From: a virus
DNA length: 47,558 nucleotides
Direction: 5' to 3' (one strand)
IMG/VR virus record: IMGVR_UViG_3300025728_000015
Coordinates: 1 to 47,558 of that record
Positions 11,003 to 28,779 of this stretch are shown here, in pieces. Each line of letters opens with the position of its first letter. Within the stretch, counting starts at the first letter, position 1. The notes below the pieces were generated by a model. It saw only the letters and a list, made by a program, of their open reading frames with translations, made no database searches and was not told the origin of the DNA. A program made the translations under genes and the position numbers.

Positions 11003-11094
11003 TGAATAGCTACAGAGCTGTAATTTATTATTTCTTTTTAAGCCTCCTTTACCTTCCTCTCAGTATATATCTTAGGATGAAAGGAGATAAATAA
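11002..11094 (+). CDS. Tiny membrane peptide between terL and portal, 30 aa
   Basis: The ATG overlaps the terL stop (TAATG) and the stop overlaps the portal ATG. The product has one hydrophobic helix (VIYYFFLSLLYLPLSIYL) and a basic end. The portal ribosome-binding site (AAAGGAG) lies in its last codons. Stop/start overlap on both sides suggests a coupled gene rather than a spacer. Confidence 0.5.
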   Translation: MNSYRAVIYYFFLSLLYLPLSIYLRMKGDK

Positions 11095-12587
11095 TGAGTC
11101 AAGAACTTCGAAACGAATACTTCTACGCACCTCATGTGTTCAATGCACCTCGAAAGTACTACCTCAAGAACATTGCAGACTTGAAAGATATCTCAATGCA
11201 GATTTACGCTTTCAATAATCGTCAGAGCGAATACAGAGAGTTGAAGAACTATTATGATAACAACACTCGAATCAATCAGAGATCCTTCGATGATCCTACG
11301 AAGCCGAACAACCGTATCAGTCACCCCTTCGCAGAAATAATCGTCAACAATGCTACGTCTTACTTCACAGGTAAGCCTATCAAGGTTCAACCTCACAAGG
11401 AGTCTAGACAGAAAGAGCTTGACCGTATTCACTTCCTCAATGAAGTAGACGACATCAACAGTGAACTAGATAGATTGTCCAACCTTTACGGACATGCTTT
11501 CGAGTTACACTGGAATGATACAATCAACGGAAAAGTTACTCCTCGCTTTAAAGCCTTATCCCCACAGAATGTCATGATGTTCCACTCAACAGACTTCGAT
11601 GAAGAGCCTATCGCTTCGGTGGTATGGACATGCGTCAGAGATACTGGAACTAATGAGATGGTCTACAACGCTACTCTCTACACGAAAGACACTGCTCAAA
11701 AGTTTTCATTCAACATGTCAGGAAAGTCAATTGTAAATATTAATCCAGACAAGCCTAAACCTCACACGATGGGATTCCTTCCGGTTATCGAGTATTTAAA
11801 TAATGAAGACAGAGCATCATCCTTCCAGAAAGTAATGGGACTCATTGATGCTTACAATACTGCTGAGTCTGATACTGTCAATGATATTGAATATTGGGCA
11901 GACAGTTATCTCGTTCTCAAGAACATGAGTGGCACTGACCCTGAAGATGTTGCAGAGTTTAAACGCAATCGTGTGATGCTTGTAGATGGAGACGGTGGTG
12001 CTGAGTTCCTTAATAAGCAAACAAACGATACTCATCTAGAGAACTTCAAAGATCGCCTCACGAGTGACATTCACAAATTCTCACAAGTACCTAACTTACA
12101 TGATGAACAGTTTGCGTCCAACTTATCAGGTACTGCTATCCGTATGAAGATTAAAGACTTAGAAGATAAAGTATCTGCAAAGGAACGAAAATTCAATAAG
12201 TCACTCCGTAAACGATACGAGATTATCTTTGCTACTCTTGATAAGGTTGACTTGGCAGAAACTACAGACTTTGTAGAATTTATCTATACAAGAAACATTC
12301 CGTTAAACTTAGTAGAGACTGCTGATATGGTTGCAAAAGCTCCAGAGGGACTATGGTCTATGAAGACTCTTCGTACACTATACGGTATCACCTACAATGA
12401 GCAGAAGGAAGTTGAGCAAATCAAGAAGGAACAAGAAGAAGCTGACAATCGACTAGCCACTGTTGATCCATTTGCACCAGCCCCTAAACCTCCAGTTGAC
12501 CCTAAAGAGCATCCTATGGGAAGCAATCAATCATCTAGTGGACAAGCTGGAAAGCCTCCAGCACCTAAGCCCTCGACACCTAAATAG
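11094..12587 (+). CDS. Portal protein (SPP1 gp6-like)
   Basis: The 497-residue protein fits the SPP1-type portal family in length and order. The N-terminal region has YYDNNTRINQRSF-like wing sequence, the middle has the stem/clip segment, and SGTAIRMKIKDLEDKVSAKERKFNKSLRK (about 350-375, abbreviated here by its ends) matches the conserved crown-side helix. A Pro/Lys-rich tail follows. Portals form the dodecameric DNA gateway at one capsid vertex. It lies directly between terL and the MuF-like gene, as expected. GAAAGGAG precedes the ATG. Confidence 0.9.
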   Translation: MSQELRNEYFYAPHVFNAPRKYYLKNIADLKDISMQIYAFNNRQSEYRELKNYYDNNTRINQRSFDDPTKPNNRISHPFAEIIVNNATSYFTGKPIKVQPHKESRQKELDRIHFLNEVDDINSELDRLSNLYGHAFELHWNDTINGKVTPRFKALSPQNVMMFHSTDFDEEPIASVVWTCVRDTGTNEMVYNATLYTKDTAQKFSFNMSGKSIVNINPDKPKPHTMGFLPVIEYLNNEDRASSFQKVMGLIDAYNTAESDTVNDIEYWADSYLVLKNMSGTDPEDVAEFKRNRVMLVDGDGGAEFLNKQTNDTHLENFKDRLTSDIHKFSQVPNLHDEQFASNLSGTAIRMKIKDLEDKVSAKERKFNKSLRKRYEIIFATLDKVDLAETTDFVEFIYTRNIPLNLVETADMVAKAPEGLWSMKTLRTLYGITYNEQKEVEQIKKEQEEADNRLATVDPFAPAPKPPVDPKEHPMGSNQSSSGQAGKPPAPKPSTPK

Positions 12588-13442: not shown

Positions 13443-14081
13443 ATGTCAGAAGTAACTTTAACGCAAGAACAATTAGTAGAGGCTTTAGAAGCAAATCCAG
13501 AAATGAAAGCAAGCTTAACAGCAACATTATTATCAGAAGAAGCTTTCGTAGCATTTGCCGAGACGGATGCAGGAAAGAAAGCTATTCAACCTAAGTTAGA
13601 TTCATTCGCTTCACAGGCAATCAATACTTGGAAGAATAACAACTTAGATAAAATCAAACAAGAAGCCGTACTACAAGCTAACCCTTCAGACACTCCAGAG
13701 CAACGTATGATTAAAGAGTTGCAAATGAAGTTTGAAGCATCGGAGAAGAGCAAGGCACTAGCTGAGCAGAAGGCTTATGCTATTAATCTAGCTAATCAGA
13801 AAGGATTACCTGTAGAGTTAATTGATCCTTTCGTTAAAGATAACACGGAAGATACAGTGCGTAGCTTGAACCAGTTCGAGATGGCATTCAAGTCAACTTT
13901 ACAGCAAGCTATCGAGCAACACACTGGAGGTCAAGGTCGTCAACATCTTCCACAGAATCCAAACGTTCAAGAGAACACTCAAGCTCCAGTACGTAGCTTT
14001 GGAGAAATGTCACTAGCTGAGAAGCAACACTTATACGCTACTGACCGTACACGTTACGAAGCTTTACAGGCTCAGGGATGA
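13443..14081 (+). CDS. Capsid scaffold protein
   Basis: The 212-residue protein is acidic and almost wholly helical, with a central coiled coil (about 95-125, MIKELQMKFEASEKSKALAEQKAY) and a Gln/Pro-rich low-complexity stretch before a short C-terminal helix. This is the usual form of scaffolds that guide shell assembly and leave before packaging. It sits directly before the capsid gene. GAAAGGGGAAAAT precedes the ATG. A strong hairpin follows its stop. Confidence 0.85.
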   Translation: MSEVTLTQEQLVEALEANPEMKASLTATLLSEEAFVAFAETDAGKKAIQPKLDSFASQAINTWKNNNLDKIKQEAVLQANPSDTPEQRMIKELQMKFEASEKSKALAEQKAYAINLANQKGLPVELIDPFVKDNTEDTVRSLNQFEMAFKSTLQQAIEQHTGGQGRQHLPQNPNVQENTQAPVRSFGEMSLAEKQHLYATDRTRYEALQAQG

Positions 14082-14152: not shown

Positions 14153-15040
14153 ATGGCATTACAAGTTAAATTAGGCGAAGGTTTTTGGAAGCCAGGTCAA
14201 GCAGGTTTAACAGGAACTACAGATACAACTGATGTACAAGCTATTATCCCTCAGGTTATGGCTGACAGTATCGCTCAAAAGATGGGCAAGCTTATCCGTT
14301 TCGCTCCATTAGCTATGGTTGATACTCGACTAGTTGGCTCAGCAGGTTCTTCTATCACGTTACCTACATGGGCTTACATTGGAGATGCTAACATTGTAGA
14401 TGAGGGTGGCACTGTAACTCGTGAGGAAATCAAAGCATCAAGCAAGTCATTCGTAATTCACAAAATCGCTAAAGATATCCAAGTAACTGATGAAGCTGAA
14501 GGCGCAACTAATGGTGCAGTCTTAAATGAAATCGACGGTCAATTAGCAGTATCTATCGCTCAAACGGTTGACAAATCAGTTGTTGAAGTATTACGTGCAG
14601 GTGCTACAGCTAATGAGATTAACAAGAAAACTGTAGAGTTAACACAAGCAGGTTTAGCACAATTACGTGTAGCTTTCGGTGAGGACATCGAAGATACTGT
14701 ACTAGTTATCGCTTCAGTAGACTACGGTAAGATTTTAGCAATGAAAGAATTCGTAGCAGTTCTTCAAGGACAAGCTTTCATGGCAGGACACGTTGGTCAC
14801 GTAATGGGATTAAACATTGTAATCTCTGATCGCTTAAATGAGAACGAATCATTCCTAGTACGTGCAGGCGGATTAGCTATCTCTTACAAGCGTCAAGTAC
14901 ACTTCGAAGTTGAACGTTTAGCTCAACAACGCTCTAACGCTTACTGTGCAGATTTACACTACGTAACTTACATCCGTGATGCATCTAAACTTCAAGGTGT
15001 AACATTCAAGGAAGCGACTGCACCTGAAGAGGGAAAGTAA
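14153..15040 (+). CDS. Major capsid protein (N4-gp56 family)
   Basis: The 295-residue protein shows the N4-gp56-type pattern: IIPQVMADSIAQKMGKLIRF (about 31-50), then ITLPTWAYIGDA (64-75), KDIQVTDEAEG and a hydrophobic domain near the C-terminus. It uses the HK97 fold in known relatives and makes the shell. Codon use is cleaner and more T-ending than its neighbours, as expected for the most abundant protein. The zero-frame stop TAA (15038-15040) directly follows a GGGAAAG slippery site. AAAGGATG precedes the ATG. Confidence 0.95.
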   Translation: MALQVKLGEGFWKPGQAGLTGTTDTTDVQAIIPQVMADSIAQKMGKLIRFAPLAMVDTRLVGSAGSSITLPTWAYIGDANIVDEGGTVTREEIKASSKSFVIHKIAKDIQVTDEAEGATNGAVLNEIDGQLAVSIAQTVDKSVVEVLRAGATANEINKKTVELTQAGLAQLRVAFGEDIEDTVLVIASVDYGKILAMKEFVAVLQGQAFMAGHVGHVMGLNIVISDRLNENESFLVRAGGLAISYKRQVHFEVERLAQQRSNAYCADLHYVTYIRDASKLQGVTFKEATAPEEGK

Positions 15041-15150
15041 AACCTCCTGAGGGGAAACCTGAAGAGGTAGAACCTCTAGAGGAATCTCCAACGGAGAATG
15101 AAGCTCCTCCTTCAAAAGAGGAAATCATTAAGGAAGCTAGTGGGGAGTAA
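14153..15150 (+). CDS. Frameshift-extended major capsid protein (332 aa)
   Basis: A -1 shift at 15031-15037 bypasses the TAA and continues in an open frame to TAA at 15148-15150, adding 37 residues rich in Glu and Pro (starting VKPPEGKPEEVEP). The open frame exactly fills the otherwise unexplained gap between the capsid gene and the next gene. Two-length capsid proteins made by -1 shifting are known in T7 (gp10A/10B). The extension probably forms a surface decoration (inference). Confidence 0.75.
15031..15037 (+). promoter_or_regulatory. Slippery site G GGA AAG for -1 frameshifting
   Basis: It has the canonical X-XXY-YYZ form in the correct phase, immediately before the TAA. Downstream, AGAGGT-AGA-ACCTCT (about 15063-15077) and CCTC/GAGG segments can form a stimulatory hairpin or pseudoknot. 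Confidence 0.75.
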
Positions 15151-15185: not shown

Positions 15186-15596
15186 ATGAGCGTCACAAAA
15201 GGATTTATCAATGATGAAGATTTAGATCCAATCTACATTGCTCAACTTGTAAGTGACATCAAACCAATGCTTCAAGGTATCACTGGAAAGACTACTGCAA
15301 TGGATGAGATATTACTAGAGAGTACAATCACCAAAGTATTGATATACATCAACGGACTAGTTCTCCCTAAAGCGTTATACTTAACAGTCGCTGAAATGTG
15401 TGCTAGACAGCTTGTAGACTACGAAGGTGGTCTTACTTCTGAGAAGGGTGAAGGAGCTGTTAAGAAAGTACAACGTGGCGGATTCACTCAAGAGTTTGAA
15501 ACTAAGCAGGCATCTTCAAGCATACCACGAGGTACTCAATTCATGCAAGACTATGTTAAGTTCCTTAATCGTTTTAGAAAGATGAGGACGATATAG
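15186..15596 (+). CDS. Head-tail connector (adaptor) protein
   Basis: ATG 15186 is chosen because AAGAGGTG lies seven bases upstream; the GTG at 15177 is part of that site. The 136-residue protein is helical, with a hydrophobic helix LPKALYLTVAEMCARQLVDY in the middle and a basic end. Its location directly after the capsid gene is where adaptor proteins that dock on the portal are encoded. Assigned mainly by position and fold type. Confidence 0.65.
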   Translation: MSVTKGFINDEDLDPIYIAQLVSDIKPMLQGITGKTTAMDEILLESTITKVLIYINGLVLPKALYLTVAEMCARQLVDYEGGLTSEKGEGAVKKVQRGGFTQEFETKQASSSIPRGTQFMQDYVKFLNRFRKMRTI

Positions 15597-16150: not shown

Positions 16151-16526
16151 AGCTACTGTAAACGATAGAGTCTTACGAGCTAAGCTATCGAGGATGTATC
16201 GAGGACTTGGAACTGAAGGAGAGACAGCCGTTAAGAATGCTTCAACAGCAGGACAGCGAGAAGCTATCAAGGGAGCGCCTAGAGAGACAGGAAACCTTAA
16301 GAGGTCTATCCAGTTGAAGCCTATCCAGAAAACCTCAACAGGGATCATTGGAGGTTTTGATGCTTCTGTAAAGTATGCATCTCCTCAGAACTATGGGTTT
16401 GTGCACAATAGATCAGGACGATTCATTGAAGGTAAGTTCTTCATGGAGAAAGGCTACCAAGCATCTCTAGTTAGGTTGGAAAAGGAAGTACAGAAAGCTA
16501 TTAAGAAATTTATCTCTGAAGGGTGA
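16137..16526 (+). CDS. HK97 gp10-like tail completion protein
   Basis: The 129-residue protein contains AIKGAPRETGNLKRSI (about 42-57), the conserved APxxTGxLxxSI signature of the HK97 gp10 family, and YASPQNYGFVHNRSGRF with the usual Y-G pair. These proteins lie at the neck and help join tail to head. It is encoded between the stopper and the tail terminator, as usual. The start overlaps the upstream gene. Confidence 0.85.
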   Translation: MARFRATVNDRVLRAKLSRMYRGLGTEGETAVKNASTAGQREAIKGAPRETGNLKRSIQLKPIQKTSTGIIGGFDASVKYASPQNYGFVHNRSGRFIEGKFFMEKGYQASLVRLEKEVQKAIKKFISEG

Positions 16527-16531
16527 TACAC

Positions 16532-16921
16532 ATGTCAGATATGGCTGGAACTTGGTATTACACGGAAGATGTTCAGCAATCTTTTGAGGATGCCCTTGTA
16601 AGGGAAATACTTGAAGTATTCGGAGAGGACACTAAAGTATACTCCCAAGCTAAGACAGGACAGATTCCTCCAGAGTGTGTCATCTTCACTGCAAAGCCAA
16701 TGAACTTCATGAGAGCTTCTGATTACGTCCAGAGGAGAACTGTTATGATTGACGTAGCAGTTGTAACCGAAAAGGGAAAGAACTGGGCGTACAATATGCT
16801 CATGAAGATGAAGTCCCTCAACATTGGAGACGTCAAAAAGGTTATCCCTTCTGGACGGTTCTCAGAGGTTGACGGGATCGTACACTTCACCTCTTACATT
16901 TATCTTGTAGAGGTAGATTAA
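16532..16921 (+). CDS. Tail terminator protein
   Basis: ATG 16532 is chosen; the GTG at 16523 belongs to the GAAGGGTG ribosome-binding site. The 129-residue protein has a helix followed by beta strands (ECVIFTAKPMNFM, TVMIDVAVVTEKGKNWAYNMLMKM, GIVHFTSYIYLVEV). This alpha/beta layout matches tail terminators that cap the tail tube. It directly precedes the tail tube gene. Assignment by order and fold pattern. Confidence 0.65.
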   Translation: MSDMAGTWYYTEDVQQSFEDALVREILEVFGEDTKVYSQAKTGQIPPECVIFTAKPMNFMRASDYVQRRTVMIDVAVVTEKGKNWAYNMLMKMKSLNIGDVKKVIPSGRFSEVDGIVHFTSYIYLVEVD

Positions 16922-17616: not shown

Positions 17617-17913
17617 ATGGAATTAACTATCAAAATTAACGGTGAAGATAAAACATTTAAGCAACCTGAAATCTTAATGGCTATCCGCTTCAAGCAAGCT
17701 GTAAAGTGGGCTTCAGCTATCGAGAAAGACTTCTCAGTTGAGACTCTTGAGGGAGCTGTACAGTTTATCGCAAATGATTTATATGTAGGACAGTTCACTG
17801 CTGATGAGTTCTGGGAAGGTGTACACACTGAGGATTTAGTTGACTACTTACGAGATGCATTAACTTCTCCTATGATGCGTATGCAAGGTAAGCTTGAACC
17901 ATTAAAAAACTAA
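17617..17913 (+). CDS. Tail assembly chaperone, short form
   Basis: ATG 17617 is chosen because GGAGG (17604-17608) precedes it; a TTG at 17602 is part of that site. The 98-residue protein resembles gpG-type chaperones: a beta-rich N-terminus (LTIKINGEDKTF) and a helical rest. It binds the tape measure during tail assembly. It ends in AAA AAC TAA, where a slippery heptamer allows the longer fusion. Confidence 0.85.
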   Translation: MELTIKINGEDKTFKQPEILMAIRFKQAVKWASAIEKDFSVETLEGAVQFIANDLYVGQFTADEFWEGVHTEDLVDYLRDALTSPMMRMQGKLEPLKN

Positions 17914-28035: not shown

Positions 28036-28779
28036 ATGAAAATAAACACACAATACCTCGTAACGGATAATGATCGCTTAAAAGTAATTGCACCTTACGA
28101 GATGAACCCTACGGAGATCACCTTCCATAATACTTACAATGATGCTTCTGCATCTGCTGAGGTTCGCAACGTTAGAAACAACTCTACAGGGACAAGCTTC
28201 CACACGGCAGTAGATGACTTCGAAGTACAACAAGTAGTTCCCTTCAATAGAAATGCTTGGCACGCAGGAGATGGAGTATCTGGGACTGGTAACCGTAAAA
28301 GTATTGGCGTAGAGATTTGCTACTCCAAGAGTGGAGGCTCTCGCTATCGCAAAGCAGAGCTAAACGCAATTGACCACATCAGTGACTTGATGATTCGCTT
28401 TGGGATTCCTATCTCTAAAGTTAAAACTCATCAGGAACGAAACGGAAAGTATTGCCCTCACCGTATGCTCGATGAAGGTCGTGTAGCTTGGTTCAAGAAC
28501 GAATTAGTTAAAGCAGTGAATATCAAAAAAGCAGGAGGCTCAGTAGAAGCCCCTATCAAGGAGGAACCTAAATTGAAAAATCAAATCTTCACAGGTGGAT
28601 ACGCATCAGAAGGACTAGTAGATATCATCGGAGCAATGAACTCTGTACATGTTACAGCTAAGATGGAACTACGTAGCGACAAGTATGTGTACATCACTAC
28701 AGATCCAACTTCAGAGGTTCAGTTGAATGCAATGAAAGGATACCTTGACCGTAATAAGCTCTGGTACGAAATGGTATAA
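28036..28779 (+). CDS. Endolysin: N-acetylmuramoyl-L-alanine amidase (Amidase_2)
   Basis: The catalytic domain (about 20-160) has zinc ligands and catalytic residues in the PlyL/PlyG pattern: His31 (HNTYNDA), Glu93 (VEICYSKSGG), His132 (THQ) and Cys140 (KYCPHRM). A linker (165-182) leads to a C-terminal wall-binding domain of about 65 residues (IFTGGYASEGLVDIIGAMNS), as in B. cereus-group lysins. It cuts the glycan-peptide bond and releases progeny after holin action. AAAGGATG precedes the ATG. It is the last rightward late gene. Confidence 0.95.
   Translation: MKINTQYLVTDNDRLKVIAPYEMNPTEITFHNTYNDASASAEVRNVRNNSTGTSFHTAVDDFEVQQVVPFNRNAWHAGDGVSGTGNRKSIGVEICYSKSGGSRYRKAELNAIDHISDLMIRFGIPISKVKTHQERNGKYCPHRMLDEGRVAWFKNELVKAVNIKKAGGSVEAPIKEEPKLKNQIFTGGYASEGLVDIIGAMNSVHVTAKMELRSDKYVYITTDPTSEVQLNAMKGYLDRNKLWYEMV

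Follow-up and report, generated by a model that had tools for sequence, protein, structure and literature searches.

A predicted programmed -1 frameshift at the end of a phage major capsid gene, with homologous tails reached by opposite shifts in relatives

Does the major capsid gene of this phage always end at its stop codon, or do some ribosomes slip into the -1 frame just before it and make a longer capsid protein? The DNA analysed (the window, 47,558 nt) is a single IMG/VR virus record from a tailed phage. Its genes are ordered as follows: terminase, SPP1-type portal, MuF, scaffold, major capsid, adaptors, major tail. Features are given in Table 1; numbers preceded by L designate the phages and contigs compared with the window. 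The zero-frame capsid product has the HK97 fold according to family, model and PDB matches. The nearest solved chain is the capsid of phage NF5 (9m66, E 4e-23, 30% identity). In the AlphaFold model (15-row alignment; pLDDT 75, pTM 0.69), the N-arm is predicted to be disordered and the C-terminal end to be unstructured beyond the last strand. The lysin gene (28036-28779) encodes Amidase_2 and a PlyG-type cell-wall-binding domain, hinting at a Bacillus-type host.

Table 1. Features of the capsid locus in the window, and possible split Fn3 domains in other phages (positions in each sequence's own numbering).
Feature	Position	Strand	Basis
Scaffold gene, DUF4355 / Gp46 type (context)	13443..14081	+	domain/PHROG matches
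Major capsid protein gene, HK97 fold, zero-frame product of 295 aa	14153..15040	+	phrog_544 (E 3e-53); Phage_capsid_4; structure model and PDB match
TGA closing the -1 frame upstream and bounding the shift	15025..15027	+	codon list
Slippery heptamer G GGA AAG, zero-frame phase	15031..15037	+	sequence, pattern search
-1 frame tail, 37 codons and TAA (15148-15150)	15037..15150	+	translation; homologous to +1/-1 tails of relatives
Zero-frame stop TAA, abutting the heptamer	15038..15040	+	sequence
Predicted stem-loop, possible stimulator	15044..15096	+	folding, suggestive only
Head-tail adaptor gene (phrog_132), next gene, likely ATG at 15186	15186..15596	+	PHROG match; start inferred from sequence
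Tail-assembly chaperone pair, A AAA AAC (17904-17910) directly before TAA	17617-18170		gene 17617-17913, -1 continuation to 18170
Tail and next gene, possible split Fn3, L002	2267-2797		
Tail and next gene, possible split Fn3, L022	13260-13784		
Tail and next gene, possible split Fn3, L023	8584-9185		
Tail and next gene, possible split Fn3, L004	2281-2970		
Tail and next gene, possible split Fn3, L056/L059/L086/L087	behind capsid gene		

The capsid gene ends GAG GGA AAG TAA and thus carries G GGA AAG, a heptamer of the X XXY YYZ form of -1 frameshift sites. The initial annotation had proposed a programmed frameshift at this heptamer. The heptamer is perfect, as stated there, but it directly adjoins the stop codon, with no codon between, instead of lying one codon before it. 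The TGA upstream closes the -1 frame, so that the shift is confined to about 12 nt including the heptamer. Beyond the stop, the -1 frame is open for the 37 codons announced (translation: GKVKPPEGKPEEVEPLEESPTENEAPPSKEEIIKEASGE*), which gives the predicted transframe product the claimed length of 332 residues (295+37). This frame nearly fills the gap before the next gene. "Exactly", as had been written, is a slight overstatement: a GAGGTG ribosome-binding site and about 35 nt separate the stop of the tail from the likely start codon of the adaptor gene. The 37 residues include 12 acidic, 4 basic and 7 proline, and the end of the tail, EEIIKEASG, looks helix-like (judged by eye). The tail matches neither a Pfam family (at E 1) nor a PHROG family (at E 0.1). 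It does not qualify as an Ig-like or Fn3 domain and, with 37 aa, is shorter than a whole one.

The tail might instead be made separately, by reinitiation or from a start codon of its own. Coupled starts are possible in some relatives; L003 has an annotated gene starting from GTG 2331, 3 bases past the stop. The codon list of the window tail, however, contains no ATG, GTG, TTG or CTG, only ATC and ATT near the end, and separate translation is considered extremely improbable.

Two properties of the site were found to carry no weight. GGGAAAG occurs 8 times in the window for 5.5 expected, which is not an enrichment; heptamer frequency, being at chance level, was dropped as evidence. A second in-frame G GGA AAG is found at 16774-16780, in gene 16523-16921, 46 codons before the gene end. 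Frame length was also dropped: 37 codons are unremarkable, since -1 extensions of at least 38 codons were found at five other gene ends (23 plus-strand ends checked). As for position, 41 in-frame X XXY YYZ heptamers are present in the 11,929 codons of 43 window genes, and the one in the capsid gene is the only one of them lying 3 codons or fewer from the stop of its own gene. The tail-chaperone gene, a 44th outside this list, is the second case in the window of a heptamer combined with a stop, and its -1 arrangement is the same in the window, L010 and L017. GGGAAAG is the heptamer of the lambda G/GT tail genes. The lambda G/GT-type tail-assembly chaperone resembles the window capsid in having an X XXY YYZ heptamer beside a stop; the gene concerned is a different one.

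The stem-loops that had been noticed downstream are present as a predicted fold, which begins 6 nt after the heptamer (-24.9 kcal/mol). This value was matched by 1/200 dinucleotide shuffles (12/300 with slightly different ends) and by 52/1000 and 46/1000 sequences preserving the tail peptide; with these controls, a role of the fold as frameshift stimulator is suggestive only. Stems were predicted 4-5 nt past the stop in all eight folded members of the clade having a tail. Statistical support for the stem is marginal in the window, and some relatives show none (z: -0.5, L017; -0.6, L004; 0.1, L056).

The deciding evidence for a frameshift in the window comes, as we read the sequences, from homology in relatives. 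No near DNA relative of the window was found among phage records. The window capsid protein used alone as query gave no relative among viral_contigs, and the L010 capsid retrieved itself only. The sole match in genome_contigs is a distant capsid without tail (L033), and plasmid records gave 8 distant capsid matches. IMG/VR relatives were gathered by terminase search and by capsid and terminase alignments. The capsids of L010 (56% identity to the window) and of L011/L014/L017 (64%) are encoded by genes ending CCC TAA, behind which the tail lies at +1. The genes of L034-L036 end G GGG GAG TAA and those of L029/L038/L040 end G GGA AAC TAA, both groups having their tail at -1; the tail of L109 is like that of L040. 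The bases before TAA form a recognised shift motif at every such site: G GGA AAG, G GGA AAC, G GGG GAG or CCC. The disappearance of the -1 frame from close relatives had been named as an argument against the frameshift. The frame is indeed absent in the nearest ones, L010, L011, L014 and L017. These carry instead a +1 tail behind CCC TAA, which in L010 is homologous to that of the window, and the -1 frame is kept in L034-L036 and L029/L038/L040.

Tails reached by opposite shifts are alike. The ends of the tails of the window (SKEEIIKEASGE), L010 (TLEEIIKEASGS) and L034-L036 (TLEEIIKEAGGE) resemble each other, and YEDMTPSxKRAYTIAKKKAE is common to the tails of L017 type (+1) and L029 type (-1). 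Identities are 19/33 residues between the window (-1) and L010 (+1) and 29/52 between L029 (-1) and L017 (+1). The alignment scores are 79 for window/L010 (shuffled mean 32), 50 for window/L034 (25) and 123 for L017/L029 (29), each reached by 0/1000 shuffles. The window tail does not align significantly with that of L017 (103/1000 shuffles) or L029 (190/1000); KPPEG follows the stop in both the window and L017. Base differences at codon positions 1/2/3 are 16/12/34 for L029/L017 and 17/12/35 for L040/L017 (52 codons each), 12/10/18 for window/L010 (33 codons) and 10/10/18 for L010/L034 (28 codons). No third-position excess is seen for window/L034 (16/13/12 in 29 codons). From the alignment scores and the codon-position differences, frames that can be reached only by opposite shifts appear mostly to evolve as coding sequence and to encode homologous tails. 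In the window, the new frame is open over its 37 codons and homologous to the tails of L010 and L034-L036. Conservation across both directions is, at the sequence level, stronger support than a single conserved frame.

These data bear on two other explanations. One is that the RNA element matters, the stem and the stop region tuning how the genes that follow are translated or degraded, with the peptide incidental. The occurrence of predicted stems at the same position in phages of both shift directions is in its favour, but homologous peptides across opposite shifts and the third-position excess are left unexplained; this explanation is judged very unlikely. The other supposes that the true product is one fused protein whose frame has been broken by a recent indel or by an error of sequencing. 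The tail is coding, and one base would fuse it to the capsid frame. It is however out of frame in 11 of the 12 rows of the clade described below, always behind a known stop-adjacent shift motif, of which there are four different sequences. Independent errors would not recur in this way in relatives, which refutes an indel or error as far as sequence can and makes it very improbable.

A capsid tree was built. Of 52 capsid ORFs, nine (L013, L025-L028, L031, L032, L039, L057) were dropped as contig-end cuts or second locus copies; 7 more rows below 140 bits were removed from the remaining 43, leaving 36. The labels (-1, +1, none) were assigned by reading the capsid gene ends. L118, whose contig ends 30 nt past the capsid stop, is outside these classes, and L109, L119, L120 and L122, added later, are outside the tree. 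The tree contains 14 rows at -1, 11 at +1 and 11 without recoded tail. The window groups with L010 and L011/L014/L017, all +1 (support 95/91). The 12-row clade around it (support 100/99) includes 11 recoded tails (7 at -1, 4 at +1) and L030, which has no tail; several rows are near copies, and by eye about six or seven lineages can be told apart in the clade. At least five changes of direction are required across the rows carrying a -1 or +1 label. From the shared stop to a shared CCTCC, L010 is one base shorter than the window (by eye); a one-base indel together with a new slip site would produce the swap. No description of a direction swap around a homologous capsid tail was found in the literature searched, which covered few subscription journals. 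As far as these searches show, the use of opposite shifts for one homologous tail inside a close clade would be new.

A programmed -1 frameshift at the end of the window capsid gene, giving a minority 332-residue form that would co-assemble and display its tail on a subset of subunits, is therefore held to be very probable. For most ribosomes, translation would end at TAA 15038 with the 295-residue protein. A minority would move back one base on the heptamer (G GGA AAG to GGG AAA), a step favoured by the adjacent stop codon and probably also by the stem-loop, and would translate the further 37 codons. While the site, the open frame and the homologous tails of relatives can be read directly, the efficiency of the slip and the presence of the long form in virions are what we infer from them. 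The long form should assemble with the short one, and its acidic, proline-rich tail would form a flexible stalk that ends in a short, helix-like binding segment. Outward display may be expected by comparison with other phages that have capsid tails. The favoured role of the tail would be that of a docking or display peptide at the surface, on a minority of subunits. Mimicry of the scaffold C-terminus was considered as another role, the tail type YEDMTPSQKRAY resembling the scaffold end FADMTHAERTALY, and was rejected. Of 25 tail/scaffold pairs, only L017 tail/L040 scaffold was strong (1/1000 shuffles); the L017 tail against its own scaffold (382/1000) weighs against mimicry.

Frameshifted capsids were described by the initial annotation as known in a few phages (T7) and uncommon. 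T7 is a known case; the rarity was overstated, since the part of a review consulted also mentions T3, A2, A118, A500 and PSA and places such capsids in phages of Gram-positive bacteria (PMC5009743). Gene10b of phage K1F is -1 frameshifted, according to part of another paper (PMC13370021). Listeria phages PSA (capsid gene cps and also tail-shaft gene tsh, +1) and A118/A500 (capsid, -1) produce two capsid forms by slippage near the gene end, as predicted in the window, and have Gram-positive hosts; PSA uses proline codon +1 sites, as do relatives of the window (PMC5009743, in part; PSA record). Unlike PSA, the window would use -1 at G GGA AAG, and the tails of the two do not match. In contrast to PSA, A118 and A500, both directions serve homologous tails in the window clade. 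A2 and T3 (Ig-like extensions) and T7 gene 10B share with the window a -1 shift at the capsid gene end, and the T7 extension is, like that of the window, not Ig-like (PMC5009743, in part). The window differs from A2, T3 and T7 in its tail, which is 37 aa long, acidic, proline-rich and without Pfam or PHROG match. The window would be a new case of frameshifted capsid, whose tail is short, acidic and not Ig-like.

Enterococcus Saphexavirus capsids (IME-EF1, EfsWh-1, fHoEfa01) are homologous to that of the window and have the identical G GGA AAG TAA and an open -1 frame; the same ending is found for the homologous Enterococcus phage capsids of L004, L119 and L120. The Saphexavirus -1 tail, unlike that of the window, is Fn3-like and stops ahead of the third strand. 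No annotation of a capsid frameshift is present in the Enterococcus (Saphexavirus) records examined. Fn3-like shifted tails lie behind homologous capsids of Enterococcus and Carnobacterium phages and of similar IMG/VR contigs: 28 aa at -1 (L004, L056, L059, L086, L087) or 21 aa at +1 (L002, L022, L023). The shifted tail resembles Fn3 strands A-B, and the next gene, with its own start codon, begins at the would-be strand C. Joined across the stop, tail and next gene match Pfam fn3 (84 positions) almost over its full length (L002: 3e-11, profile 2-81; L022: 1.8e-12, profile 2-82), whereas the downstream genes alone match profile 40-82 only (L002: 1.4e-4; L022: 5.2e-5). The domain is read as split because the match is near full-length only once the two parts are joined. 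This suggests, from sequence comparison, that capsid tails can serve as half-domains on which a separately translated decoration protein docks. If the tail does supply strands A and B, only shifted capsid subunits could hold that protein. No description of a split-Fn3 capsid dock was found in the same literature, again with few subscription journals covered.

Other arrangements were observed behind capsid genes. The Fn3/Ig genes L056 15417-15857 and L002 2351-2797 match phrog_341, "major tail protein", yet adjoin the capsid gene; they may encode capsid decorations. Listeria phage P70 (L024) has an Fn3-like first part at the in-frame end of the capsid gene itself, and each of the two genes that follow (11046-11243 and 11257-12135) begins with a similar half domain (all by eye; fn3 was not confirmed by Pfam for 11046-11243). 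These two genes may compete for the first part carried by the capsid. The tails of L003 and L081 have Big_2 matches. L074, L075 and L076 form a further +1 CCC TAA capsid group (tails of 104-121 aa); the Ig/Fn3 matches of the L075 tail are all sub-threshold. In L009 (about 2300-2334), some 11 consecutive A immediately precede the capsid stop, and the Ig-like gene follows in the +1 frame; transcriptional slippage at this run is possible.

Indifference to shift direction has been noted before: in the part consulted, the review remarks that the choice between -1 and +1 seems indifferent and repeats an earlier proposal that non-homologous recombination brings domains into differing frames (PMC5009743). 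In the window clade, the tails on either side of the swap are homologous, so that the shift signal looks as if it had been exchanged around a kept tail. Tentatively, and with more doubt than confidence, it is proposed that selection keeps a docking peptide at a tuned dose and not the mechanism. Single-base indels next to the stop would be rescued, either way, by swapping -1 sites (GGGAAAG, GGGAAAC, GGGGGAG) and +1 sites (CCC TAA), and in the Enterococcus/Carnobacterium relatives the tail would be Fn3 strands A and B docking a separate decoration protein. If the exchange is real, it would be a natural experiment in which the peptide, and perhaps its dose, is conserved and the mechanism is not. 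Short capsid tails, possibly including a docking half-domain, may be overlooked in phage annotations.
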